This document shows positions 1 to 18,726 of a DNA stretch of 33,745 nt, one piece after another. A program made the translations under genes and the position numbers. Origin of the DNA: Gammaproteobacteria bacterium (GTDB taxonomy: Bacteria > Pseudomonadota > Gammaproteobacteria > Steroidobacterales > Rariloculaceae); the NCBI GenBank assembly GCA_029243585.1, contig JAQWRR010000033.1, forward strand, positions 1 to 33,745, in the 5' to 3' direction. The stretch's first letter is position 1. Each line of letters begins with the position of its first letter. The notes under the pieces are model-generated. The model saw only the letters and a list, made by a program, of their open reading frames with translations. It ran no database searches and was not told where the DNA came from.

Positions 1-184
1 TATTTACGTCTATGACGTAGAGACGAGGGAGCTCTTAAAGGTAATTGAAATGCCTGGTAATGGAGATGCACACGGACTAATTTGGGTTCATTACGATGAA
101 AATGGAGAGCCTCGTACCGTGCGTGATCAAGGAAACTTCCACGGAGGAATTAATCCGGCAGAGGGAGCCATATTAGATTATTGA
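1..184 (+). CDS. C-terminal fragment of a probable beta-propeller (YncE/YVTN-like) protein, truncated by window edge
   Basis: The window opens inside a gene. The frame starting at base 2 is open for 60 codons and stops with TGA at 182-184. It is absent from the ORF track because it has no start inside the window. The fragment begins IYVYDVETRELLKVIE, which resembles a blade of a YVTN/WD-type propeller (a 'YVYD..T..LL..I' strand pattern). It ends with a His- and Gly-containing tail (DQGNFHGGINP). A second propeller-like protein lies 2 kb downstream on the same strand, so a related periplasmic function is plausible. The family call rests on a short tail only. The SCO gene begins about 75 bases later. 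Confidence 0.5.
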   Translation, partial: IYVYDVETRELLKVIEMPGNGDAHGLIWVHYDENGEPRTVRDQGNFHGGINPAEGAILDY

Positions 185-259
185 TATCTGTGGATCTAAA
201 AGCTTTTTGAATGAAAGCCTGAGAATAAAAAAACCTATGATGACAAGGTAAGAAATAAT

Positions 260-907
260 GTGAAAATTTTACCAAAACTTAGTGAAAAAATAGTAGTCAC
301 TGCATTTGTGGGAGCTGTCAGTCTTGGGTCTTTTTCATTTCTTGCACATTCTCAGCATGTACATTCTGATATTCCTGCTTCAGTTGATAATGCTCATGCT
401 TTACACGCTGACAATATAGAGGCAGGCCAACCTAGTTTTGCTAGCCCACTGAGCGACATCATTGTTGATTTTGAGTTAGTGGACCGTCATGGAAACCTCG
501 TTTCAAGTGAAGATTTTCTTGGAGAGCACCTACTTCTTGGTTTTGGTTTTACCCATTGTCCAGATGTTTGTCCGATGATGGCATTAAATATGGGGATAGC
601 ACTGCGAGATACAGAGGTCAAGGCAAAAGGTATTTTTGTAAGCATAGATACTGAACGTGATACCCCCACAATAACAGACGAATATGTTTCAAGATTCGGT
701 GATGACCTGATAGGCCTTGGTGGAAGTATTGATCAAATTAATGCCGTCGCAAATAACTTCAAAGTGAGTTATGCGATAACGAAAACACAGAATAATTATA
801 TTGTGCAACACACCTCTAATGTTTTTCTGATTGATCCATTAGGAAAGCTTATTGATGTATATCCTTTTTCTACGCCAGCTGAGACCCTGGTTGAGGCGAT
901 GCATTAG
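260..907 (+). CDS. SCO1/SenC family copper-binding thioredoxin-fold protein
   Basis: A 215-residue protein with an N-terminal hydrophobic segment (about residues 11-29), so it is membrane-anchored or exported. The SCO core runs from about residue 65 to the end. It has the family CxxxC copper/thiol motif in THCPDVCP (C100, C104) and the distal histidine in QHTSNVFLID (H184), which are the three copper ligands of the family. SCO proteins deliver copper to the CuA site of cytochrome oxidase or act as periplasmic thiol reductants. Between the anchor and the core is a His-containing stretch (H30, H33, H35, H46, H49) that might bind metal; that is inference. The start is GTG; an ATG two bases earlier, in another frame, is followed at once by a stop. 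An AAGG lies about 11 bases upstream. No oxidase genes are nearby; the neighbours are a CcdA-type membrane protein and propellers. Confidence 0.85.
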   Translation: MKILPKLSEKIVVTAFVGAVSLGSFSFLAHSQHVHSDIPASVDNAHALHADNIEAGQPSFASPLSDIIVDFELVDRHGNLVSSEDFLGEHLLLGFGFTHCPDVCPMMALNMGIALRDTEVKAKGIFVSIDTERDTPTITDEYVSRFGDDLIGLGGSIDQINAVANNFKVSYAITKTQNNYIVQHTSNVFLIDPLGKLIDVYPFSTPAETLVEAMH

Positions 908-918
908 TCGTTTTTGCT

Positions 919-2283
919 ATGTATATTTCTTCAACACGCATTAATTCCTTAAAGCTAAGCGCACTGCTTTTTTTTGGGTTTGCTATTGCATCCTCGTGGC
1001 TTATTTTTCCCTATTTTGTTCAGGGACAGCAGTTACTTAGGGGTATTGGTGATGATAGTCGAATGATTAAAGCGGGTAGCGTATCTCGTTACCTTACCCG
1101 AGAGCTAATAAAAACCCCGGATTTAGAAATCACAGCAACATTAGCAACGGATGAGTATTTTCAGTATGTGGATAGAGCCGCTGTTGTTGGAAATCTCCGG
1201 CCCGATAGGAATTTTATTTTTTTTGTTGCAGAGACAATACACCGGGGAGATCTACCACAAGAAGTGCCCATAGCAACTCTTAGGGTCGGTGAAGACGAGT
1301 ACCTTCCAACAATTTCAGATGGACCAAGCCTTGTTTCACATCATCGATTAAGCGTCTACAGTTTTCCAAAACGCGATGCTGACGGACGTTTAATTGAAAT
1401 AGAAGAGGCAGGTCGTATGCGACTGTATGTGTCAAATAGATATATGGGGAGCAATCGACCTCTGACTTTTGTAGGTAGTTGGGATGCACCATATAGTCTG
1501 CCTGATGAGCTGAAATCTCGTGCAGACATTACGCCGGTAGCAGTATTGGCTTTGGGCGCTGGGCTCTTGTCTTCAGTTCTTACCCCATGCCTGCTTCAGC
1601 TTGTCGTGGTTTTTGGCGGGGTAATTGCCGGTTTTTCAACTGTGCCAGGTCAGTCGGTTGGGGGTTCTAGGCAATTAACGCCGTTAATTCGTCGCAAGAT
1701 TATGCAGCTCGCACTGGCCTTTGTTATTGGGTTTGTTTCTTTGTATGCCCTTGCGGGCGCATTTATTGGAGCGCTGGGTCATCAGGCCCAATTAGCCTTC
1801 TCGGAATACAGCCGGGCTGTAGCCATCATATCCGGCGTACTGGTTATCTTATTAGGACTTTGGGTGGGCTACAGAGGAACCCGAGACTTTGCTTGCCGAA
1901 TTCCTGACCGTCGTGCCATGGAGGCTCTCTCAATGAGGGACACCGTTGGTACGGTTTTAACATCTATGGGTTATGCGCTAGGTTGCACGGCTTGTTTTGG
2001 TGGCGCAATCGTTGCTACTTTAATCGTCTATGTGGGCGCAATTGGCAGCGCTGCAATTGGGGCAGGAATCATGCTCACTTTTGGCATTGGGGTTGCTATA
2101 CCGTTTCTTCTTTCTGCCTACTATATTTCTAAGATGGATACGATACTGCTATTTCTAGCCGAGAATTCAAAATCACTAAGTTATGCGAGTATGATTATTA
2201 TTATCCTATTTGGATTGATCTTGCTTACCGATAACTTTCATGTCGTGAGCGATATGATTTATCCCTATCTTGGGCTAAGTTAG
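919..2283 (+). CDS. Membrane protein: novel periplasmic N-terminal domain fused to CcdA/DsbD-type transmembrane electron-transfer core
   Basis: 454 residues. One N-terminal membrane segment (about 11-34) is followed by roughly 170 residues of probable periplasmic, beta-rich sequence that I do not recognise. From about residue 204 there is a multi-spanning hydrophobic region resembling CcdA/DsbD-beta. The first core helix carries LTPC (C224) and a later helix carries GYALGCTACFGG (C356, C359); C326 lies in a loop. Paired intramembrane cysteines of this type move reducing equivalents from cytoplasmic thioredoxin to periplasmic thiol proteins. Starting 11 bases after the SCO stop, it is probably co-transcribed with it, so the SCO CxxxC is a sensible electron acceptor (inference). 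Family length is usually about 240 residues for CcdA, so the N-terminal half is additional. Annotators may call it 'cytochrome c biogenesis protein'. Confidence 0.75.
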   Translation: MYISSTRINSLKLSALLFFGFAIASSWLIFPYFVQGQQLLRGIGDDSRMIKAGSVSRYLTRELIKTPDLEITATLATDEYFQYVDRAAVVGNLRPDRNFIFFVAETIHRGDLPQEVPIATLRVGEDEYLPTISDGPSLVSHHRLSVYSFPKRDADGRLIEIEEAGRMRLYVSNRYMGSNRPLTFVGSWDAPYSLPDELKSRADITPVAVLALGAGLLSSVLTPCLLQLVVVFGGVIAGFSTVPGQSVGGSRQLTPLIRRKIMQLALAFVIGFVSLYALAGAFIGALGHQAQLAFSEYSRAVAIISGVLVILLGLWVGYRGTRDFACRIPDRRAMEALSMRDTVGTVLTSMGYALGCTACFGGAIVATLIVYVGAIGSAAIGAGIMLTFGIGVAIPFLLSAYYISKMDTILLFLAENSKSLSYASMIIIILFGLILLTDNFHVVSDMIYPYLGLS

Positions 2284-2292
2284 AAGACATAC

Positions 2293-3441
2293 ATGCCGAT
2301 GTTCACTTTTCGAACAACCATCTTTATAAAATCTTTGCTTGGGGCACTAGTTGCTTTTTTGTGTCTTTCGTCAGGTTTATTTGCCCAGGTTGATATATCT
2401 AATCCGCAGCGACTGATGTTCGTGGCTGATGCTGATGATCCAATTATTGATGTGATTGATCTTCAAGAAAACGAAGTTATATTCAGAATTGAAACAAAAC
2501 AAAAAGTAGATGATTTGGTTGCAACACCATTTGCTCCAGTCTTGATTTACACAAATATCGATAAGCAGCTTGTAAGCATGTACAACTTGGAAACACAGGA
2601 ACTTGCAAAAGAAGTCATATTACCCATAGTGCCGCGGCATATGGTTCTTGATACAACAGGGTCAAAAATTGGCTTTACAGATAGTGAGTCTGGGGGATTC
2701 GTTCTTCTATCGGCTTACGGAGGACAAGTGCTTTTTACTTTAGAGGATTTTCCTCCAACAACAGATGTTCTTTTTGATCCTAATGAAGTCGATATTTGGT
2801 ATAGCAATGATCTGGATGGAAGTATTGGCTTGATTGATAGTAATGTTAAAAAAACATTTGAAATAGAGGTAACTGATAAGCCTGAACAGATGCTTTCCTC
2901 TCCTAGCCGAAGTTTGGATGGGCGTTATATTTACGCGGCTAATGAAACTACGGGAGAGGTTTATAGTGTTAATGCCTTTTCAAAAATAGTATATAAAACA
3001 TTTAATATTGGAACCCGACCAGCTCGTCCCTACTCAACTCCTGAGGGCGTTTTCCTTTATATGATGGACAAGGATTCGGGAAGATTTGTTTCCATAGAAC
3101 AACATCTTTTTACAGAATTCGATAATACGATCATTGGCGAAGGTATTGACCTTATAACCGTAGGTCGATTTGATCGTTTGAATCTATTAGCCAGCACAGA
3201 AAACCATAATTTTTATATTTATGACAACAATAGGAAGGCAGTAATAGAGCAGGGTAAGCTAAATTTTACTCCTCTTGATGCACAGGGAGCGGCTGATGGT
3301 CGCCGAGCCTATCTAGCTTCAAGTGATAGCCCTGAAGTAGCAATAATTGATCTGGAGGATCAGCAGGTCAGCTATATTAAGGTGGCGAACGGAAGAGTTG
3401 GCGCATTTGCCATTGGCCTATCTAATAATGTTTGTCATTAA
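2293..3441 (+). CDS. Exported beta-propeller (YncE/YVTN-like) protein
   Basis: 382 residues with a clear signal peptide ending near LFAQ (about residue 32). The mature part consists of repeated short beta-strand units (for example LMFVADADDPIIDVIDL, YIYAANETTGEVYSVNA, AYLASSDSPEVAIIDL) typical of YVTN-type seven-bladed propellers. Length fits a single propeller of about 350 residues. It has one cysteine, near the C-terminus, and no haem c CxxCH motif. Two ATGs (2293 and 2299) are possible starts; an AGAAG lies just upstream. It starts 9 bases after the CcdA-like gene and ends the cassette. Propellers of this kind serve as binding scaffolds or as dehydrogenase heavy subunits; the ligand here is unknown. 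Confidence 0.7.
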   Translation: MPMFTFRTTIFIKSLLGALVAFLCLSSGLFAQVDISNPQRLMFVADADDPIIDVIDLQENEVIFRIETKQKVDDLVATPFAPVLIYTNIDKQLVSMYNLETQELAKEVILPIVPRHMVLDTTGSKIGFTDSESGGFVLLSAYGGQVLFTLEDFPPTTDVLFDPNEVDIWYSNDLDGSIGLIDSNVKKTFEIEVTDKPEQMLSSPSRSLDGRYIYAANETTGEVYSVNAFSKIVYKTFNIGTRPARPYSTPEGVFLYMMDKDSGRFVSIEQHLFTEFDNTIIGEGIDLITVGRFDRLNLLASTENHNFYIYDNNRKAVIEQGKLNFTPLDAQGAADGRRAYLASSDSPEVAIIDLEDQQVSYIKVANGRVGAFAIGLSNNVCH

Positions 3442-3615: not shown

Positions 3616-4590
3616 ATGTCCCTACAAGAAAGATTTGTCAGCTTAGAATCACATATGGCTGGCCTGGTTGTTGGCCAGGCCGCTCTCCTAAACAGAATGT
3701 TGGTGGCGCTTCTCTGCGATGGCCATTTATTAGTGGAGGGCGCGCCAGGTTTAGCTAAGACGCGAGCAATTAAAGTGCTTAGTCACAGTATAGAAGGCGA
3801 TTTCCATCGTCTGCAATTTACTCCTGATTTGCTTCCTGCAGACCTAACGGGTACAGAAATATATCGTCCACAAGATGGTACTTTCGTTTTTAGGGAGGGA
3901 CCGTTATTCCATAATCTAGTGCTAGCGGACGAGGTAAATAGGGCTCCAGCTAAAGTCCAGTCAGCCTTGCTTGAAGCGATGGGTGAAAGGCAGATAACGG
4001 TGGGATCCGTAACCTATCCATTACCTGAATTATTTATGGTCATGGCAACTCAAAATCCCATCGAGCAGGAAGGAACATATCCTCTTCCAGAGGCACAGTT
4101 AGACCGCTTCTTAATGCATGTTTTAGTCGATTATCCGGATGTGGCTGGTGAGAGGGCTATCTTGGCTTTAAATAGAGTTGAAGCGAAACGTTCCACATCA
4201 GATGAAGAGCTATTTACGCCACAAACTGCTCTGAAACAGGGAGAGGTTTTAGCAGCGAGACAGGACGTATTGAAACTACACCTTTCTGAGCCGCTTGAGG
4301 AATACATCGTTCAGATCGTTTTAGCTACAAGAGATTGTGGTCGTTATGGAGATGATCTTCAGGGTTTATTGCAATATGGAGCAAGTCCTAGAGCAACTAT
4401 CGCATTGGATAGGTGCGCACGTGCCCATGCCTGGCTTACAGGTCGTGACTACGTTACGCCGGAGGATATTCAATCAGTTGCACGCGATGTGCTCAGACAT
4501 AGGATTCTTCTCAGCTTTGAGGCAGAGGCTGCTGGGCGAAATCCTGACCAGATTGTAGATATGCTCTTAGATAGGATAGGAGTGCCGTGA
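3616..4590 (+). CDS. MoxR-family AAA+ ATPase
   Basis: 324 residues, full length for MoxR. Walker A is GAPGLAKT (about 42-49) and Walker B is LVLADE (101-106), followed by NRAPAKVQSALLEAMGE. The sensor-1 region is ATQNPIEQEGTYPLPEAQLD (about 144-163), a MoxR signature. The C-terminal lid domain contains GASPRATIAL. MoxR ATPases act as chaperones with VWA-domain proteins, inserting metals or maturing partner complexes, and those partners are encoded immediately downstream. The start ATG has AAGG six bases upstream. The last four bases (GTGA) overlap the next gene's start. Confidence 0.95.
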   Translation: MSLQERFVSLESHMAGLVVGQAALLNRMLVALLCDGHLLVEGAPGLAKTRAIKVLSHSIEGDFHRLQFTPDLLPADLTGTEIYRPQDGTFVFREGPLFHNLVLADEVNRAPAKVQSALLEAMGERQITVGSVTYPLPELFMVMATQNPIEQEGTYPLPEAQLDRFLMHVLVDYPDVAGERAILALNRVEAKRSTSDEELFTPQTALKQGEVLAARQDVLKLHLSEPLEEYIVQIVLATRDCGRYGDDLQGLLQYGASPRATIALDRCARAHAWLTGRDYVTPEDIQSVARDVLRHRILLSFEAEAAGRNPDQIVDMLLDRIGVP

Positions 4591-5513
4591 GTTATCCACT
4601 AGATCTGTCTAAGATATCACCAGCTCGAATTGCATTAACTGATTTAATCGGGCTTAAGAAAGCGGGGGAATCGCTTAGAACAGATGCCTTGCGAGTAAGC
4701 GCTCTGGATGCAGGTAGCCACCTATCTAGATTAAAGGGTCGCGGAATAGAATTTGATGAAGCACGTCCTTATCAAGAAGGTGATGACCTTCGGACGATCG
4801 ATTGGCGGGTTACAGCTCGGACTGGAAAAACTCATACTAAAATTTTCAGAGAAGAACGAGATCGTCCGGTAATAATTTGGCTCGACTATCGTCAATCTAT
4901 GATGTTTGCCACGCAGGGGGCATATAAGGCGGTTAGGGCTGCCCAGGTTGCGGCTTTACTAGCTTGGAGTGCTGTTGCCAATGGTGATCGTTTGGGAGGA
5001 TTGGTTTTTTCCGAGCAAGAGCACGTTGAGCTACGCCCCCGTCTTGGGCACCGAGCGGCCTTAAATCTATTCAGAACCCTAACTAAAGCAGTTTTTTGGG
5101 AGCCTAAAGATTTAGATAATGATTTGGATAAAGCACGATCACTATTGAGACTGACTCGGGTCGTACGCCCAGGTAGTCAAATATTTTTGTTAAGTGATTT
5201 CCGCGGATTATCAGAGTCTTTTGAACAACATTTGCGACAGTTAGCTAGGCACAGTGATGTGTCCTTATTACAGTTTTTCGATCCGGTTGAGAGGGAGCTT
5301 CCTCCACCGGGTAGGTATCAAATCGATATGGGTGGGTCTTTGATTTCTATTGATACCAATCAAATTAATTCCCGGGAAGCATATAGAAAGCGTTTTCGTG
5401 CTATCCAGTCACCTTTAGAAAAGCTATCACGGCTTCCAGGGGTTCAGTTACTAGAGTGTTCCACCGTAGCGGACCCCTACAAGTTACTTACTCAATACTT
5501 TGAAGTTAAATGA
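4587..5513 (+). CDS. DUF58 domain protein
   Basis: 308 residues. The DUF58 core lies at about 51-95: GRGIEFDEARPYQEGDDLR, then IDWRVTARTG and a K-x-F-R-E-E segment. The later part has a degenerate VWA-like fold (LLSDFRG near 200). It is soluble, with no signal peptide or membrane segment. DUF58 proteins always travel with MoxR ATPases and Bat-type VWA proteins. The GTG start overlaps the moxR stop as GTGA, and the stop overlaps the following ATG as ATGA, so translation is coupled on both sides. Confidence 0.92.
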   Translation: MSYPLDLSKISPARIALTDLIGLKKAGESLRTDALRVSALDAGSHLSRLKGRGIEFDEARPYQEGDDLRTIDWRVTARTGKTHTKIFREERDRPVIIWLDYRQSMMFATQGAYKAVRAAQVAALLAWSAVANGDRLGGLVFSEQEHVELRPRLGHRAALNLFRTLTKAVFWEPKDLDNDLDKARSLLRLTRVVRPGSQIFLLSDFRGLSESFEQHLRQLARHSDVSLLQFFDPVERELPPPGRYQIDMGGSLISIDTNQINSREAYRKRFRAIQSPLEKLSRLPGVQLLECSTVADPYKLLTQYFEVK

Positions 5514-5998
5514 ACCCAAGCTTTGACCCAACTGATATGCCATTGAGGGATATACATCTTCCGGATGCTATTTCTTGGTGGCCGCTTGCTTTTGGATGGT
5601 GGGCTTTAGTGTTAATTGTTGTTACCGGTATTGCAGTGTTCGCAGTACGTTTTTATGCAGCTCGGCGGCAAAGAGTAGCGCGCCGAGAAATTCAAAAAGC
5701 AATGGATACGCTTCATACGGGCCAGGATCCCGCGCTATGTGCACAACAGTTTTCAACTATCATGAGACGATTTGCAATGACGATTAGTGGTGAACCAGAT
5801 GCGGTAGCTGGCCTGGCAGGCGAAAACTGGCTCTTATTTCTTGATGAGTCCTGGGAAAATGAAGAATTTACTCAAGGCGAGGGAAGGCTTTTATTATCAG
5901 CACCGTATAGGAGTGAAGGCAGTGTTAACCAAGATCGTTGCTTTAAACTGGGAGCCCTCTGTATATCTTGGATCAAAGCACAGCCGGTGAGGCTCTGA
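5510..5998 (+). CDS. DUF4381 domain membrane protein
   Basis: 162 residues. It begins with a short Pro-rich head (MPLRDIHLPDAISWWPLAFG) that matches the DUF4381 pattern, followed by one membrane helix (about 25-46) and a basic stretch (AARRQRVARRE). The remaining cytoplasmic part is helical (about 50-160). This small family is found between the DUF58 gene and batA in gammaproteobacterial Bat operons, and the placement here is the same. The biochemical role is unknown. Start ATG overlaps the DUF58 stop by four bases. Confidence 0.85.
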   Translation: MNPSFDPTDMPLRDIHLPDAISWWPLAFGWWALVLIVVTGIAVFAVRFYAARRQRVARREIQKAMDTLHTGQDPALCAQQFSTIMRRFAMTISGEPDAVAGLAGENWLLFLDESWENEEFTQGEGRLLLSAPYRSEGSVNQDRCFKLGALCISWIKAQPVRL

Positions 5999-6000
5999 CT

Positions 6001-7023
6001 ATGTGGAGTCTTGCTTGGTGGTGGATCCTGTTTGCATTACCCATGCCCTGGTTAGTACGGCATTTTTCAAATGCTGAACCTACCTTGAAGGATGCGGCAC
6101 TAAAAGTTCCGGTACCAGAAGAATTTGCTGGGTTAACTGGAGTTAGCGCAAAAAAAACAGTACCAAGCATTAAATTGTTAGTGCTTTGGTGCATTTGGAT
6201 ATTAATTGTATTTGCCGCTGCTAGGCCGCAGTACCTGGGGGAGCCTACTTTTCTTCCAGTAACAGGCAGGGACCTTCTTCTTGCAGTTGACCTTTCAGGC
6301 AGTATGGAAGAACAGGACTTTCAGCTTAATGGAGAGTGGGTAGATCGACTTACTGCAACCAAATCGGTCGCTAAAGAATTTATAGGTAGACGTGTAGGTG
6401 ATCGTATAGGCCTTATTCTTTTTGGTCGTGAGACTTACTTGCAGACACCGCTTACCTTTGATCGTGAGACAGTACAAACATTTCTTGATGAGGCTGTTAT
6501 TGGTCTGGCTGGCAAAGAAACTGCGATAGGAGACGCTATCGGACTTTCTATAAAGACTCTTGCAGATGCTGAGGTAGAGGAGAGTCGTCGAGTGTTGATT
6601 CTCTTGACTGATGGAGCAAACACAGCGGGAGCAGTAGATCCGCTTAAGGCGGCTGACTTGGCTCGGGACAGAGGAATGGTGATTTACGCTATTGGGATAG
6701 GTGCGGACGCATTAATGGTGAGATCACTATTTGGTGTACGGCAAATTAATCCATCAGCTGACCTGGATGAACAAACATTAACGACTATCGCTGAAGGTAC
6801 AGGGGGCATTTACTTCAGAGCGCGGGATACAGATGAACTTCAGAATATCTATACCATATTAGATGAATTGGAACCGGTTGCAGATGAAGAGCAAGGATTT
6901 AGACCAATAGAAGAATATTTTTATTGGCCTCTAGGTTTAGCCCTAGCCTTAAGCATTTCTTGGGCTATGACTGGGATTAGACGGAAGGTGGCAGGCTCAG
7001 TATTAGAGGTTAGTAGTGGCTGA
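6001..7023 (+). CDS. BatA-like VWA domain membrane protein
   Basis: The ORF track starts at a TTG at 5968, but ATG 6001 is preferred: it gives the usual membrane-first start MWSLAWWWILFALP, lies two bases after the DUF4381 stop, and has GAGG eight bases upstream. This yields 340 residues. Two N-terminal membrane helices (about 4-18 and 58-74) precede a VWA domain with a complete MIDAS motif DLSGS (97-101), a TAIGDA threonine segment, and LLTDGANT. A C-terminal helix (PLGLALALSISWAM) follows. VWA domains bind protein partners through a metal ion. The gene overlaps the next by eight bases. Confidence 0.9.
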   Translation: MWSLAWWWILFALPMPWLVRHFSNAEPTLKDAALKVPVPEEFAGLTGVSAKKTVPSIKLLVLWCIWILIVFAAARPQYLGEPTFLPVTGRDLLLAVDLSGSMEEQDFQLNGEWVDRLTATKSVAKEFIGRRVGDRIGLILFGRETYLQTPLTFDRETVQTFLDEAVIGLAGKETAIGDAIGLSIKTLADAEVEESRRVLILLTDGANTAGAVDPLKAADLARDRGMVIYAIGIGADALMVRSLFGVRQINPSADLDEQTLTTIAEGTGGIYFRARDTDELQNIYTILDELEPVADEEQGFRPIEEYFYWPLGLALALSISWAMTGIRRKVAGSVLEVSSG

Positions 7024-8770
7024 GTTTCATTTTATTCGTCCCTTATGGTTGCTCGGGTTGCCAGTAGGTATTTGGTTAATATGGAAGCTGGTGCGGAGAA
7101 GCGGTGCTTTAGGGCGTTGGCATGAATTGGTGGATGATGCGCTAAAGCCCTATGTATTAACGGCTCCAGATCTTAGTTTAAAAGAGCATAACTGGTTAAC
7201 TGGTGCCGCAATAATTGCATGGGTGCTAGCCACGGTTGCTCTAGCAGGGCCTACTTGGGAACGATTACCTGTGCCCGCATACAGATCTTCTGAAGCGTTA
7301 GTGGTTGCGTTGGATTTATCCCGCTCTATGGATGCAGGCGATCTTCAACCAACGCGTTTGGCACGTGCCAAGCTTAAGCTTTTGTCGCTACTGGAGCGCC
7401 GCGCGTCAGGGCAGACTGGATTAATTGTTTTTTCAGCTCACGCCTTTACGGTATCTCCGCTTACGGCAGATACGGAGACTATTACCGCGTTGGTATCTAG
7501 TCTTACCAGTGACATTATGCCTAGTCGTGGAAGTTACCCAGAAGCGGGCGTAAATCGTGCTATTCAGATTATGCGACAGACCGGGATCAACCAAGGCGAA
7601 GTGCTTCTTATGACGGACTCGGCAGTATCACCGGGAATGGAAGCTTTAGCGCAAGAACTTCGTGAGGATGGCTTTATTTTGCATGTAATGGCTATTGGGA
7701 CGGCAGAAGGGGGACCAATAGCTCAGCCACGTGGTGGTTTTCTTACGGATAATATTGGTCAAGTCGTGGTTAGCCAGGTTGATCTTGTTCGATTAGAGCG
7801 GTTGGCAGATTTGGGTGGAGGCCGGTTCTCTAGTCTCGCACCTGATGACCGCGATTTAGATTATTTATTCCCTAATTCTAACTTACTGAATGCTGGTGCT
7901 TCTGAAAGTATGGATTTTCAAACAGATGTATGGCGTGACCAGGGACCTTGGCTTTCGCTGTTGCTAGTCCCGTTAGTGGCACTTGCTTTTAAACGTGGGT
8001 GGATTGTTCTATGGGTTGTTGGGATTATTTTACCTGGGACAAGGGCGGAAGCATTGGCTTGGGATGACCTATGGTTGCGTGCTGATCAGCAAGGCCAGGC
8101 TGCATTTGAGGCCGAAGAGCATCAGCAAGCTAGTGAACTATTTCAGAACCCCGAGTGGCGTGCTGCCGCTCAGTATAGAGCTGGTGACTTCGCAGCCAGT
8201 GCCGCCTCGTTGGAAAATATTGAAACCGCAGAAGCTCACTATAATCGTGGTAATGCCTTGGCTAGAGCAGGAGCAATTCCTGAGGCTATTAATGCCTATG
8301 ATCTGGCTCTTGAACTTGAATCGGAGCATGAAGACGCGATTTTTAATCGTGACCTTTTGTTGCAGCAACAGCCACAAGAGTCGCCAAACCAGGAGGGTCA
8401 GCAGGGAGACAACTCGGAGCAAGATTCGTCTGAAGATGGTCAAGAAGAATCAGAGGGAGATTCACAGGAGTCACAGGAAGATACAAGCCCCCAAAGTGCA
8501 GAGGGAGGAGAAGCTGAACCACAAGATTCAGAGGATCCTGAACAGGTTGCTGAGTCTGATCAGGAAGATTCAATTGAAGGAACACCCTTGCCTACCGCTG
8601 AAGAGCTTGAAGAATGGGCATCTGAGCAGGCAGCTGATCAATGGCTAAGGAGAATTCCACAAGACCCCGGTGGGCTTTTGCGAAGAAAGTTTCTCTATCA
8701 ATACCAGAGACTAGGGGTTGATCAGGACGGAAATTATGTTTGGCCAGGTGACGAGGAGCAACCTTGGTGA
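7016..8770 (+). CDS. BatB-BatC fusion: VWA domain plus TPR membrane protein
   Basis: 584 residues. Membrane helices at about 9-25 and 62-77 come first. A VWA domain follows with MIDAS DLSRS (100-104) and MTDSAV (about 199-204). Two helices (about 312-326 and 328-345) lead to a second, probably periplasmic, part with TPR-like repeats (about 365-445: AQYRAGDFAASAASLE, AHYNRGNALARAGAIPEA). Next comes a Gln/Glu/Ser/Asp-rich low-complexity stretch (about 450-525), then a conserved-looking tail (QWLRRIPQDPGGLLRRKF). In Bacteroides and others BatB and BatC are separate; here they form one chain, as is common in gammaproteobacteria. The GTG start lies inside the end of batA. The acidic linker suggests a flexible spacer. 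Confidence 0.9.
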   Translation: MAEFHFIRPLWLLGLPVGIWLIWKLVRRSGALGRWHELVDDALKPYVLTAPDLSLKEHNWLTGAAIIAWVLATVALAGPTWERLPVPAYRSSEALVVALDLSRSMDAGDLQPTRLARAKLKLLSLLERRASGQTGLIVFSAHAFTVSPLTADTETITALVSSLTSDIMPSRGSYPEAGVNRAIQIMRQTGINQGEVLLMTDSAVSPGMEALAQELREDGFILHVMAIGTAEGGPIAQPRGGFLTDNIGQVVVSQVDLVRLERLADLGGGRFSSLAPDDRDLDYLFPNSNLLNAGASESMDFQTDVWRDQGPWLSLLLVPLVALAFKRGWIVLWVVGIILPGTRAEALAWDDLWLRADQQGQAAFEAEEHQQASELFQNPEWRAAAQYRAGDFAASAASLENIETAEAHYNRGNALARAGAIPEAINAYDLALELESEHEDAIFNRDLLLQQQPQESPNQEGQQGDNSEQDSSEDGQEESEGDSQESQEDTSPQSAEGGEAEPQDSEDPEQVAESDQEDSIEGTPLPTAEELEEWASEQAADQWLRRIPQDPGGLLRRKFLYQYQRLGVDQDGNYVWPGDEEQPW

Positions 8771-10413
8771 GCAAAAAATTAATAGCTACGCTTTTATTTG
8801 GGTTCTTGTTTATTGGCAAACTTTTTGCACAAGAACCCGAGCTTAATGCAAGTCTTGATAGATCTGTGGTTAATGAGAATGAATCTTTCACATACACGCT
8901 TTATGTTCAGGGACAGACAAGCATTGAACCCGACTTAAACTCGCTATCTAACGATTTTGAAATCTTACAGAGGTCTAGAAATACAAGTATCCAGATGATT
9001 AATGGGACAACTTCGCAGCTTACCGAGTGGCGTATACAGTTAATGCCGCTCTCTGTGGGTAACTTTACTATTCCACCAGTACAGTTAGCTGGCTCATTAT
9101 CTAACCCTGTGCAAGTGCAGGTTTTACCTGCTACTACTGGTGATACACCAGGTGAGATTTTTATTGAAGTTGAGTTGATGCCCTTCACAGCTTACGTTCA
9201 ATCTCAAGTAATCTATACGCTTCGGCTTTTTCGCGCTATCAATACGGGCCGCTCTAGCCTTACGACACCGGAGGCAACTGGGGGTGAGGCTATTATAGTG
9301 CCGCTTGGAGAGGACCGAGAGTTCCGTACTCGTCGCGATGATAAAGATTTTATTGTCCTAGAGCGGCAGTATGCGATTTTTCCTCAAGCAGCCGGAGAAT
9401 TGATCATTGAGCCAGTGACATTTGAGGGAGTTGTTCTCACAGCATCTGGTTTATCCAGTCTCCAAAGGGTTCGTTCAGGTGTTCTAGCTTTATCCGTACA
9501 AGCCGCCGTTCCCCCTCCCCAGGAATACCCCAATGCCTCTTGGGTGCCAGCAAGTTCACTCAACCTATCCGAGCTTTGGAGTGATGACCCAGGGGAGTTC
9601 ACATTGGGTATTCCACAGACGCGAACTTTGACTATAGAGGCGGAGGGTTTAATAGAAACACAACTCCCAGAAATAACAATGCTGCAGACAGAAGGAGTTC
9701 GCCAGTACTCTGATCAGCCTGAATTGGAACGTGAAACGGGCCCCGAAGGTGTACAGGCTACTCGCATAGAACGTTTTGCTGTAATAGCACAATCACCTGG
9801 GCAGGTAACAATCCCAGCAGTTGAATTGCCATGGTTCAATGTTGTTGACGGGGCATGGGAAGTTGCTCGGGTCGATCCTAGAGTATCAGTAGTTATTAAT
9901 AATCAGAACGAATTCCTATCTCCATCAATAGGTCAACTGGAAGAAATTACTGATTTAGAGAGTGCTGCTGGTAATGAACGCTTATGGCAATGGGTGAGTG
10001 CAGCCTTATTGAGTGCTTGGCTTTTAACCTTGCTGGTTTTTCGTTTTGGTTGGATACGTCGTACACCTACTAGAAGCGAACCCTCAGTAGTTTTGAAAAA
10101 ACCAAGGGAGAACCAGATGCTTAGAGGTGTCATTGCTGCTTGTGAGAAAAATGATCCTGAGACGACACGAAGTCTATTGCTAGAATGGTCTGAAAATTAT
10201 GTGGCTAGTGAGCCTAAAACGCTTGGATATCTCGCAGCTAAAGCGCCAGAGGATCTTGCTAAAGCTGTTTCTAACCTGGAAAAGAACCTTTATGGCCCAA
10301 GCGCTGATAGCTGGGATGGGAGAGCGTTGTCCATAGCGATTAAAAAATATAGTCGATCGCAAAGAACTGGTGACAAAACTACCGAAGAAGTGCTACAGCC
10401 TTTATATCGGTAA
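8767..10413 (+). CDS. BatD family protein (oxygen tolerance/DUF-type, membrane anchored)
   Basis: The track begins at TTG 8764. GTG 8767 is better: it overlaps the upstream stop as GTGA and has GAGGAG seven bases upstream, giving 548 residues. A signal peptide (KKLIATLLFGFLFIGKLFAQ) is followed by a BatD-type beta-sandwich series. 'LNASLDRSVVNENESFTYTL' at the mature N-terminus is the usual BatD opening. One C-terminal helix lies at about 412-430, with a cytoplasmic tail of about 115 residues rich in helix. BatD is the periplasmic component of Bat systems, linked in some bacteria to oxidative stress tolerance; the exact role is unsettled. Last gene of the operon. Confidence 0.85.
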   Translation: MSKKLIATLLFGFLFIGKLFAQEPELNASLDRSVVNENESFTYTLYVQGQTSIEPDLNSLSNDFEILQRSRNTSIQMINGTTSQLTEWRIQLMPLSVGNFTIPPVQLAGSLSNPVQVQVLPATTGDTPGEIFIEVELMPFTAYVQSQVIYTLRLFRAINTGRSSLTTPEATGGEAIIVPLGEDREFRTRRDDKDFIVLERQYAIFPQAAGELIIEPVTFEGVVLTASGLSSLQRVRSGVLALSVQAAVPPPQEYPNASWVPASSLNLSELWSDDPGEFTLGIPQTRTLTIEAEGLIETQLPEITMLQTEGVRQYSDQPELERETGPEGVQATRIERFAVIAQSPGQVTIPAVELPWFNVVDGAWEVARVDPRVSVVINNQNEFLSPSIGQLEEITDLESAAGNERLWQWVSAALLSAWLLTLLVFRFGWIRRTPTRSEPSVVLKKPRENQMLRGVIAACEKNDPETTRSLLLEWSENYVASEPKTLGYLAAKAPEDLAKAVSNLEKNLYGPSADSWDGRALSIAIKKYSRSQRTGDKTTEEVLQPLYR

Positions 10414-14160: not shown

Positions 14161-15135
14161 ATGATTGAATTCTTATTTGACTATGGTCTTTTTGCCGCGA
14201 AGTTTGGAACAATTACGGTACTTATAGTGATAGTTATTGGGGTAATTGCAGCATCAACAAAGCGTGGTGCAAATGAAGAAGGACTTGCTGTAGAGCATTT
14301 AAATAAGCGCCTAGAAGCACTAGGTGATGCAGTACGTAGGTCGGTTCATGGAAAGGAGCAGTTGAAAAAGGCCTCTAAAGAAAGAAAAAAAGAAAAAAAA
14401 GAACTATCAAAAAAAGGCTCTCAACGCCAACGTATTTACGTCATAGATTTTAAAGGAGATATTCGGGCAACTGCGACCTCATCGCTTCGTGAAGAGGTTT
14501 CAGCAATTCTTTCTGTTGCTGAAAGTGATGATCAAGTGTTGGTTCGACTGGAGAACCCAGGCGGAACTGTACATGAACATGGTTTGGCAGCCTCTCAACT
14601 TCTTAGAATTAGAAGCAAGGGTATTCCTTTAACAGTTTCTGTCGATAAAGTTGCAGCTAGTGGGGGCTATCTTATGGCCTGTGTTGCAAGCCGTATTATT
14701 GCTGCACCATTTGCAATTATTGGTTCGATTGGCGTTATTGCACAACTTCCTAATTTTCATCGATTCCTAGAGAATAAGGGGGTTGATTTTGAACAAATTA
14801 CGGCTGGCCGTCACAAACGAACACTCACCATGTTTGGAAAAAACACGGATGAGGATAGAGATAAGCTAAAAGAAGAAATAGAAGATGTGCATGAGCTCTT
14901 TAAGGCCCAAATTGCTAGTTATCGGCCTCAAATTGATGTTGAAGGTGTATCTACTGGTGAGCACTGGTATGGCACACGGGCGTTAGAGCTTGGTTTAATT
15001 GATGAGATTTGTACTAGTGATGATTTTCTAAGTGAGGCTGCTTCTGATGCTGACTTATATGGCATAACATTTAAACGAAAAAAATCTCTTCCAGAAAGAC
15101 TTTTAGGAGGAGCAGAAAGTTTTTTAGCTCGCTGA
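14161..15135 (+). CDS. sohB: SohB-type S49 peptidase
   Basis: 324 residues. One N-terminal membrane helix (about 10-31) is followed by a very Lys/Glu-rich linker (KKASKERKKEKKELSKK, about 69-86), encoded by a run of A-rich codons prone to slippage but intact here. The S49 domain has the nucleophile in VAASGGYLMAC (S167) and the general-base lysine in AGRHKRTLT (K219), the Ser-Lys dyad of SppA/SohB proteases. Proteases of this kind cleave membrane or signal peptides at the inner membrane. GGA lies seven bases before the ATG. The 3' end overlaps the convergent oplAH by 12 bases. Confidence 0.92.
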   Translation: MIEFLFDYGLFAAKFGTITVLIVIVIGVIAASTKRGANEEGLAVEHLNKRLEALGDAVRRSVHGKEQLKKASKERKKEKKELSKKGSQRQRIYVIDFKGDIRATATSSLREEVSAILSVAESDDQVLVRLENPGGTVHEHGLAASQLLRIRSKGIPLTVSVDKVAASGGYLMACVASRIIAAPFAIIGSIGVIAQLPNFHRFLENKGVDFEQITAGRHKRTLTMFGKNTDEDRDKLKEEIEDVHELFKAQIASYRPQIDVEGVSTGEHWYGTRALELGLIDEICTSDDFLSEAASDADLYGITFKRKKSLPERLLGGAESFLAR

Positions 15136-18100
15136 GCCATAACCTCCACCGCCTGGTGTTTCAATGATGAAGCGATCCCCTGCCTCAAGTAGGTTTTCCT
15201 CAGTGGCCGCAATATTCTCTCTTTTATTTGATAAGTTACGAATAATATAGTTTCTACCTGCTTTCCCATTACCACCATTTGCTAAGCCAAATGGTGGTAT
15301 ACGTCTGCGATTCGAAAGAATAGATGTTTGCATAGGTTCAAGAAAAAGAATTTCCCTTACTACGCCATCCCCTCCTTGTTGAGCTCCTTTACCCCCTGAA
15401 CCTTTTCTAATTTCAAATCTTTCAAGACGAATGGGATAGCGCCATTCTAGAACTTCAGGGTCTGTTAGTCGGGAGTTTGTCATATGAGTTTGGACAGCGC
15501 TTGCACCATGAAAGTCTGGTCCGGCACCAGCGCCACCACATATGGTTTCATAGTATTGATACTTTTCATTGCCAAAGGTGAAATTATTCATTGTTCCTTG
15601 GGAGGCGGCAGACGCGCCCAGTGCAGCTAAGAGCGCATCAGTAATACATTGTGATGTTTCTACATTACCTGCTACAACTGGTGCTGGATAGCGAGGATTA
15701 ACCATGCTTGATTTGGGCAACTTAATAGTTAATGGTCTAAGACAACCATCGTTTAGAGGAATATTTTCTTCGATCAATGTTCGAAATACATATAGAACAG
15801 CTGCCCTAACAACCGCAGTAGGGGCATTAAAATTGGTTGAGCTTTCCGAAGAAGTACCACTAAAATCAATGATTGCGTCACCTTTTTCTTTATCGATTAT
15901 GATTGAAATATTTATACACTCATGACTATCTAATTCTATTGACCAGTTTCCGTTACTCAGTTTTTTGATTGCTTTTCTTACACAGTTTTCCGCGTTTGTT
16001 TTTATATGATCCATATAAGCATGTACGACATCTCTACCAAAACGCTTAATCATCTTGGTTAATTCAAGAACACCCTTTGTGTTTGCGGCCACTTGGGCTT
16101 TTAGATCTGCAATATTTTGATCTGGATTGCGAGCAGGGTAAGGACTATCACTTAAGATTTTTCTTATATTTTTTTCAAGAAAAACTCCATCACTAACGAG
16201 TAGTACATTATCAAGTAGGACGCCTTCTTCCTCTATTGTTATGCTTGTGGCTGGCATAGAACCGGGTGTTTTCCCACCAATATCTGCGTGATGTGCACGA
16301 CAGGCAACAATAAAATCAAGCGTATTTCCAGGCTGATTAAAAATAGGAGTTACAACGGTAATATCTGGAAGATGAGTGCCACCGTTATAAGGCGCATTTA
16401 AAACATATACGTCTCCTGGCTTAAGTGCACTATGATGTTGGTTTAATACAGCCTTTACGCTTTCTCCCATAGAGCCAAGGTGTACTGGCATATGTGGAGC
16501 ATTCGCGATTAGATCGCCAGCCGAGTCAAATACTGCACAAGAAAAATCTAGGCGCTCCTTTATATTTACCGAGTACGCGGTGTTTTCTAGCACAATTCCC
16601 ATTTGTTCAGCTATGTGCATGAACAGATTATTGAATATTTCTAACCTGATCGGGTCTGATTGTGTTCCAAGTTTTTCTCTAGTTGAAACCGTGCTAGATC
16701 TAGTTAAAAGAAGATGTCCAAGTTGATTTACCTTAGCTTGCCATCCTGGGTCGATAATAGTTGTTGAGTTAGGGTCAACAATGAGTCCGGGACCGGTTAA
16801 TTGCCAACCAGCACCCAGTTTTTCTCTTAGATAAACTGGGGTGCTAATTGGCACAGAATCAAACCAAATATCCCTTAAAGCCTCTGGTTGATTATCGACT
16901 GTACCACCTGTCCAAAGTGGTTCTTCAAGGCTTGCTCCCTCAACTACAGCCTCAACTTCAATGCTTTCCACAATTAATGTGGTGTCATCAGCTTCAAATC
17001 CAAAGCGTTTATTATGCAGCTTGAGAAAATTTTCTTTAACGCGTTGCAGATTTTTTTCATATGTAATGGGTAGTGCAGTGTCCGAGCCAACTGATTTCAT
17101 CATCAGTCGGTATGAGAAGTTAATTAAATCAATCTGAACCCCTTGTTTAACTAGCTCCTCGAGTCCATTTTTCTCAAGTTTAGAAAAAGTTGCTTCCAAT
17201 TTTGGAAAAATATCTTTCGTCCAAGCGCTTTCCATGCTCATCTGCTTTAAAGAACGCATGTCAGCTAGACCCATACCATAAGCAGATAACACCCCAGACA
17301 TTGGGTGAATAAATATGGTCTTTACTCCTAGTGCATCTGCTACCTGGCAAGCATGCTGACCAGCTGCTCCACCAAAACAGCAAAGTGAAAATTCAGTTAC
17401 ATCATGTCCACGCTGAATAGAAATATTCTTAATAGCAGTAGTCATCCTTTCAACTGCAATTCTTAAGAATCCTGCTGCTAGCTCTTTTATAGAAACCTGA
17501 TGCCCAGTTTCACTTTGCAATTTTTCTGCAAGACTAGTAAAGAGGAGTGAAACTGATTTATGGTCTATTTCTTCATTACCGTTTTGTCCAAAAACCTTTG
17601 GGAAATAATCTGGTTGTAAACGTCCCAGTAGTACATTTGCATCGGTGACTGTTATAGGACCATTGTTTCGATAGCAGGCTGGTCCAGGATAGGCCCCCGC
17701 TGATTCAGGACCTACCTGTAACCGATCCGAAGACAGCTTCAAGATTGAACCACCGCCTGCTGCTACGGTTTGTACTCGCATCATAGGCGCTGTGAGCCGA
17801 ACGCCAGCAATCATGCTACTTGTTGTTCTTTCAAAGTCGCCATCATAGAGCGACACATCCGTAGAGGTGCCGCCCATATCAAATCCTATTAGTTTTTTTA
17901 GATTAGCGGACTTGGCAGTTCTGACCATTCCTACAACACCCCCAGCCGGTCCTGAAAGGACGCTATCCTTCCCTCGGAATGATTCAGCACTAGTCAATCC
18001 GCCATGACTTTGCATGAATAGAATTGGTGTGTCGCCGAGGCGCTCAGCAAGACCATGCCGTACTTGGTCTACATAGTTTTTAAGTATGGGAGAAAGATAC

Positions 18101-18726
18101 GCATCTGTTAAGGTGGTATCTCCTCGGGAAATAAGCTTCATAAGAGGGCTAGTTGAATGAGATACAGAAATTTGCTCAAACCCAATTTCCTCAGCAATTT
18201 TTTGTGCAACTTGTTCATGTATAGGGAAGCGGTATCCATGCATAAAAACAATGGCAACACTTTTGATTTTGTTTTTATATGCTTCTTTAAGCTGGCTACG
18301 CAGGCTCAGTTTATCTAGAGGCTCAATTATTTCCCCTTGTGCGGAGAGGCGTTCTTGGGTCTCAATAACCTGGGCATAGAGCATTTGGGGTAACTCTATA
18401 TTTAATGCAAAAATATCAGGTCTATTTTGATAGCCAATGCGCAATGCATCGCCAAAACCTTTTGTGATAACCAAAGCTGTATCTGCTCCACGTCGTTCAA
18501 GAAGAGCGTTGGTGGCTACTGTAGTCCCCATCCTCACCACTTCTAGGTGTTCATTTGTTTGGGATAGGATTCTCAGAATTCCATCAACAACAGCATCTTT
18601 ATAATGTGAAGAATTTTCAGAAAGAAGCTTAGTAGCAGTAATAGATCCATTAGGATTTCTAGCTACTATATCGGTGAAGGTTCCTCCACGGTCAATCCAA
18701 AATTGCCAGCCTGCTTTTCTTTCCAT
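15124..18726 (-). CDS. 5-oxoprolinase / hydantoinase, HyuA-HyuB fused (OplAH type)
   Basis: 1200 residues. The N-terminal HyuA-type half has an ASKHA-like ATP site ([10 protein letters not shown] at 11-20; [15 protein letters not shown] further on). It continues to about residue 690. The C-terminal HyuB half contains [32 protein letters not shown] and the terminal GGGGYG. The single-chain layout matches ATP-dependent 5-oxoprolinase, which opens 5-oxoproline to glutamate in glutathione turnover. Hydantoinases and acetone carboxylases share the folds but are usually split, so the substrate is inferred. It stands alone on its strand. No strong Shine-Dalgarno is seen at the ATG. The stop lies inside sohB on the opposite strand. 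Confidence 0.82.

Follow-up and report, generated by a model that had tools for sequence, protein, structure and literature searches.

Enzymes that carry copper in a beta-propeller are few but important, acting in the turnover of nitrous oxide, thiocyanate and methanethiol, and the assembly of their sites is partly known. In thiocyanate dehydrogenase (TcDH; PDB entries 5F75, 5OEX, 6UWE and 6SJI), a periplasmic seven-bladed propeller, copper is held by tunnel histidines that include an adjacent pair, and electrons are donated to cytochrome c (PMC9456337, PMC6504805). Its active site includes H135, H136, H206, H381, H437, H482 and H528, and copper loading in the cytoplasm has been proposed for this Tat-exported enzyme (PMC6504805). 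Nitrous oxide reductase (NosZ) is also a seven-bladed propeller with a ring of histidines, two consecutive and five others (PMC11573801), and methanethiol oxidase (MtoX, SBP56 family) is a periplasmic copper enzyme whose proposed ligands are His89, His90, His140 and His412 and whose gene is adjoined by an SCO1/SenC gene (PMC5739008). Here we describe a four-gene cassette at the start of a 33,745-nucleotide stretch (the window) of contig JAQWRR010000033.1, from a gammaproteobacterium of the Rariloculaceae. It encodes a cytochrome-propeller protein (CytProp), an SCO protein, a CcdA-type fusion protein and a second propeller (Prop2), and we think it rather likely that CytProp is a periplasmic oxidoreductase encoded together with its own assembly proteins.

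The initial annotation of the window had linked four adjacent genes as a redox cassette that may mature or protect an exported metallo- or quinoprotein encoded upstream. The four coding regions are indeed present on one strand, with gaps of 75, 11 and 9 bases in succession (Table 1), and the likely upstream client can now be named as CytProp, which carries a predicted metal site and has its last 60 residues inside the window. Base 1 of the window is the contig start (G000:C66) and lies inside the CytProp gene. It covers the opening 33.7 kb of contig 66 in a 1.8-Mb genome of 77% completeness, and because its CytProp copy is cut by the contig edge, the complete protein was read from relatives. 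We found no prior description of a CytProp enzyme or its substrate in the open-licence literature, and an account in a subscription journal could exist.

CytProp and its invariant histidines

In relatives the complete CytProp has approximately 580 residues and consists of a c-type haem domain fused to a seven-bladed propeller. A complete homologue of 582 residues (L004:7507-9252) provides the residue numbers used throughout for CytProp. Its N-terminus reads as a Sec-type signal, which is followed by the haem c domain (CxxCH, then the conserved Met79) and by the propeller. A single CxxCH was found in nearly all of 49 CytProp homologues. H242, H297, H298, H503 and H546 are invariant in 49/49, as are K470 and E472, and H569 is kept in 45/49; the window fragment carries the equivalents of H546 (nucleotides 71-73) and H569 (nucleotides 140-142).

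Neither CytProp nor Prop2 reached a family threshold in Pfam or NCBIfam. The full-length structure model of CytProp was poor (predicted local distance difference test, pLDDT, 57) and its Foldseek matches were generic. The propeller-only model reached a pLDDT of 79 and a predicted template modelling score (pTM) of 0.84, and seven inner strands were counted. In this predicted model H242, H297/H298, H503 and H546 stand at or beside the starts of inner strands in four consecutive blades, and the six histidine side chains may converge at one site. In Foldseek searches with the propeller-only model the top ranks went to generic YVTN/WD propellers, and NirN, NirF and hydrazine synthase beta were placed high as well, a ranking that does not discriminate among families.

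Co-inheritance, accessory proteins and divergent cassettes

CytProp was detected in 20 of the 246 genomes of the order, several of the surveyed genomes being incomplete. The CcdA fusion is present in 17/20 CytProp genomes versus 0/20 relatives without CytProp (Fisher p ~1e-8) and Prop2 in 16/20 versus 0/20 (Fisher p ~8e-8), the split within the window's own family being 13/16 versus 0/6 (p 0.001), and these p values carry no correction for phylogeny. The order CytProp, SCO, CcdA fusion, Prop2 is repeated on independent contigs of relatives, which rules out a chance arrangement. Neighbourhood analysis, which could have shown the four genes to occur separately, showed them to occur together, and the data support a co-inherited redox and maturation gene set, in keeping with the initial annotation. 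A 369-genome sample of the class held no further CytProp genome. In another class of the phylum CytProp was found in 1 of 385 genomes, and a second genome of that other-class family holds a CcdA fusion and Prop2, followed by a related propeller of which the contig end leaves just the beginning.

By Pfam score and by their retained cysteines (and the SCO histidine), two of the window's products belong to the SCO1/SenC and CcdA/DsbD families. The SCO protein scores 123.9 bits against the SCO1-SenC model (gathering score 22.8) and carries CxxxC at codons 100/104 together with His184; both cysteines and the histidine are invariant in 15/15 homologues. The CcdA fusion scores 38.3 bits against the DsbD_TM model (gathering score 27.1), and Cys224, Cys326, Cys356 and Cys359 in its membrane part, as well as His441 close to the C-terminus, are invariant in 17/17 homologues. 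It differs from CcdA/DsbD in having an extra N-terminal periplasmic domain, in the approximately 200 residues that precede the DsbD_TM match; this domain has no Pfam family match and contains three histidines (His108, His141 and His142) that are also invariant in 17/17.

Propeller-repeat matches of Prop2 were all below threshold (e.g., TIGR03866, 56.7 bits versus a cut-off of 287). Its C-terminus is N-x-C-H in 21/21 homologues, including both other-class versions, and this tail supplies three of the nine invariant Prop2 columns; in the window it ends in Cys381-His382 (nucleotides 3433-3438). Because the tail is kept in every homologue despite divergence to 15% pairwise identity, its terminal thiol and imidazole are probably the working part of the protein, and the invariant Cys-His pair at the C-terminus offers a well-defined target for mutation in this propeller.

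Many CytProp paralogues per genome were found in G764, G778, G844, G860 and G872, with a tandem pair at L086:9443-13090. Paralogue-rich genomes such as G764, G778 and G872 contain a single CcdA fusion, either adjacent to a CytProp gene or at a distance of 9-18 kb from one, as would be expected of a maturation factor shared among paralogues. The neighbours of the paralogues vary (DUF6152, sulfatase, metallo-beta-lactamase hydrolase, dehydrogenases, and tripartite ATP-independent periplasmic and phosphonate-type transporters), and no single candidate substrate emerges from them; next downstream of the L041 version is a phosphonate-type ATP-binding cassette transporter. The expansion and its varied neighbours suggest substrate diversification.

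Genome G834 contains a second, divergent cassette, at L113, in which the propeller is a separate protein of 461 residues with ~26% identity to CytProp. This propeller keeps all six histidines, the lysine and the glutamate, against 58 of 140 highly conserved CytProp columns overall, and the probability of keeping 6/6 histidines by chance is ~0.5%. Since the six histidines persist in this stand-alone propeller, the constant feature is the histidine set and not the haem fusion. The L127 propeller is likewise without fused haem.

Proposed function and alternatives

The propeller histidine set with its adjacent pair and the presence of SCO in the operon resemble TcDH, NosZ and MtoX, and by this analogy the CytProp metal is probably copper. 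We propose that H242, H297, H298, H503, H546 and H569, together with Lys470 and Glu472, all at the mouth of the propeller tunnel, would bind at least one metal ion, most likely copper, and that CytProp would oxidise a small substrate and pass the electrons to its own haem c and on to the respiratory chain. We infer this direction because a cytochrome is fused or adjacent. A c-type cytochrome receives its haem in the periplasm, while the chain is still unfolded, and since this attachment occurs there, the metal would also be loaded outside the cytoplasm. SCO would deliver copper to CytProp in the periplasm, while the CcdA fusion would move reductant across the membrane and keep the thiols of SCO, and probably also the tail cysteine of Prop2, reduced. 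Prop2 may be a docking, transfer or assembly factor that acts through its N-x-C-H tail, and one cassette could serve several CytProp paralogues per cell. Tentatively, these proteins may form a new class of copper-propeller dehydrogenases, in which a six-histidine propeller is fused to or encoded with haem c, paralogues act on different substrates, and assembly is carried out by SCO, a histidine-bearing CcdA fusion and Prop2 as a metallochaperone. If true, this would account for a recurrent, unnamed redox cassette in uncultured proteobacteria. An uncharacterised, paralogue-rich family that travels with a compact maturation set makes both the chemistry and the assembly testable with four genes.

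We compared CytProp with known propeller enzymes. A profile of the two blades that hold H242 and H297/H298 matched the PDB entries 5oex (0.0076), 6uwe (0.0077), 5f75 (0.012), 6sji (0.24) and 8q9x (1.9e-5), the last of which is listed only as a Tat-signal protein and is, we presume, TcDH. This two-blade similarity favours copper as the metal but is a lead and not a sign of membership; similarity to TcDH over the full length was not found, and single-sequence searches retrieved no TcDH. Cyanase, which several TcDH organisms possess, was found in 0/21 CytProp genomes; this is suggestive only, as some TcDH organisms are also without it (PMC6504805). Unlike CytProp, TcDH is Tat-exported and is encoded beside copCD or cus genes in place of SCO/CcdA (PMC6504805, PMC5328954), and it has no fused haem. 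With no cyanase in the genomes and weak similarity, CytProp is unlikely to be TcDH proper. MtoX resembles the cassette in its periplasmic location, adjacent histidine pair and SCO1/SenC neighbour (PMC5739008), whereas MtoX loci carry mauG and the CytProp cassette carries instead the CcdA fusion and Prop2. An SBP56 methanethiol oxidase was rejected, as CytProp did not match PF05694 even with E values up to 1 allowed and a search of six genomes detected no SBP56. NosZ shares the seven blades and the ring with two consecutive histidines (PMC11573801), but CytProp has no CuA domain and no nosDFYL neighbours were seen. L-NosZ (NF052460), prompted by weak NCBIfam matches, was rejected at 17.3 and 25.3 bits versus a cut-off of 700. 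Family searches with CytProp did not place the upstream gene in a known oxidase or nitrous oxide reductase locus.

The initial annotation had also drawn an analogy with methylamine dehydrogenase loci, which was not supported. No mau family was among the Pfam or NCBIfam matches of the cassette proteins, the cassette has no Cys-rich small subunit alongside it, and the methylamine dehydrogenase heavy chain surfaced just as a generic propeller match. Conservation centres on the CytProp histidines, the SCO copper motif and the terminal Cys-His of Prop2, a pattern that favours a metal site over a quinone derived from tryptophan. The cassette had further been described as being without oxidase or cytochrome maturation genes; no oxidase or ccm genes were present among the window's open reading frames scanned, but a cytochrome does belong to the locus, since the upstream propeller is fused to a c-type haem domain (CxxCH).

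Several observations weigh against a copper oxidoreductase with dedicated assembly proteins. Neither TcDH nor NosZ was in the Foldseek top 50 for the CytProp propeller, and the TcDH match is local, covering two blades, with generic YVTN propellers scoring as well or better. Three CytProp metagenome-assembled genomes have no detectable CcdA fusion, for which incompleteness may or may not account. No adjacent SCO was detected in the L008 cassette, in the alphaproteobacterial L041 and L127 cassettes, or in those of G764 and G778. The role proposed for Prop2 was deduced from its tail only.

The cassette could alternatively serve thiol and haem c maturation, with the CcdA fusion and SCO keeping the CytProp CxxCH reduced and the propeller binding a ligand and no second metal. 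Cytochrome c maturation draws its reductant from proteins of the CcdA type, and the one CxxCH of nearly all CytProp homologues would fit such a role. We consider this unlikely, as an ordinary haem c ligation system would not be confined to CytProp genomes, the second G834 cassette and L127 serve propellers without fused haem, and the invariant histidines of the propeller and of the CcdA periplasmic domain would be left unexplained. Less likely still, the histidine ring could hold another metal (e.g., calcium, iron or manganese) with SCO as a thiol reductase only. Thiol oxidoreductase activity is known among SCO proteins, and the cassettes with no adjacent SCO would be in keeping with this; however, the known propeller histidine rings are catalytic copper sites (NosZ and TcDH, and as proposed for MtoX), and the Cys-Cys-His copper motif of SCO is complete in 15/15.

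A NirS/NirN-like role for CytProp, as an enzyme of haem d1 or another tetrapyrrole for which Prop2 would be the counterpart of NirF, is very improbable. The architecture is the same, a cytochrome c domain and propeller with a separate propeller partner, as in cytochrome cd1/NirN with NirF, and NirN and NirF were among the best Foldseek matches. The local PF02239 matches are weak, covering one short stretch at 19.2 bits versus a gathering score of 25.5, and the haem d1 biosynthesis protein NirJ was above its cut-off in 0/21 genomes (best 67 bits versus 515). The cytochrome cd1 propeller has eight blades, versus seven in the predicted CytProp model, and d1 assembly offers no place for SCO and the CcdA fusion.

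Surroundings of the cassettes

Downstream of the cassette the window holds a bat operon and then mostly housekeeping genes (Table 1). The bat operon adjoins the cassette in L003 and L004 as well, and in L005 MoxR/DUF58 lie 6.7 kb off; as adjacency is confined to near relatives, the operon was rejected as a part of the system. The cassette gave no PADLOC match that would indicate a defence function, the viral collection searched held no relative, and the plasmid collection searched gave just a generic YncE-type match.

Table 1. Coordinates of the features in the window and of the divergent cassette in G834.
Feature	Position	Strand	Remarks
CytProp 3' end (last 60 codons and stop)	2..184	+	92% identity to residues 523-582 of L004:7507-9252
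SCO1/SenC family protein, exported	260..907	+	PF02630 5.7e-36
CcdA/DsbD-type membrane protein with N-terminal periplasmic domain	919..2283	+	PF02683 1.2e-9, PF13386 3.9e-7
Prop2, exported beta-propeller, ending in ...SNNVCH	2293..3441	+	sub-threshold propeller matches
bat-type operon, complete (MoxR, DUF58, DUF4381, VWA, VWA-TPR, BatD)	3616-10413	+	directly after cassette
Fused hydantoinase A/B (oxoprolinase-type) protein	15124-18726	-	1200 residues
Second, divergent G834 cassette	L113:6228-11545		consecutive genes for stand-alone His-ring propeller, cytochrome c-cupredoxin fusion, CcdA fusion, Prop2, SCO

In L074 and L078 a CytProp copy lies between tatA-like and tatB/tatC genes, with azurin and a cytochrome oxidase operon further on. 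A joint CytProp-azurin-cytochrome oxidase operon was rejected because opposite-strand genes (D-Tyr-tRNA deacylase-like and tatA-like) intervene. The L113 cassette is followed downstream by a glutathione S-transferase-like gene and a TauE/SafE exporter.

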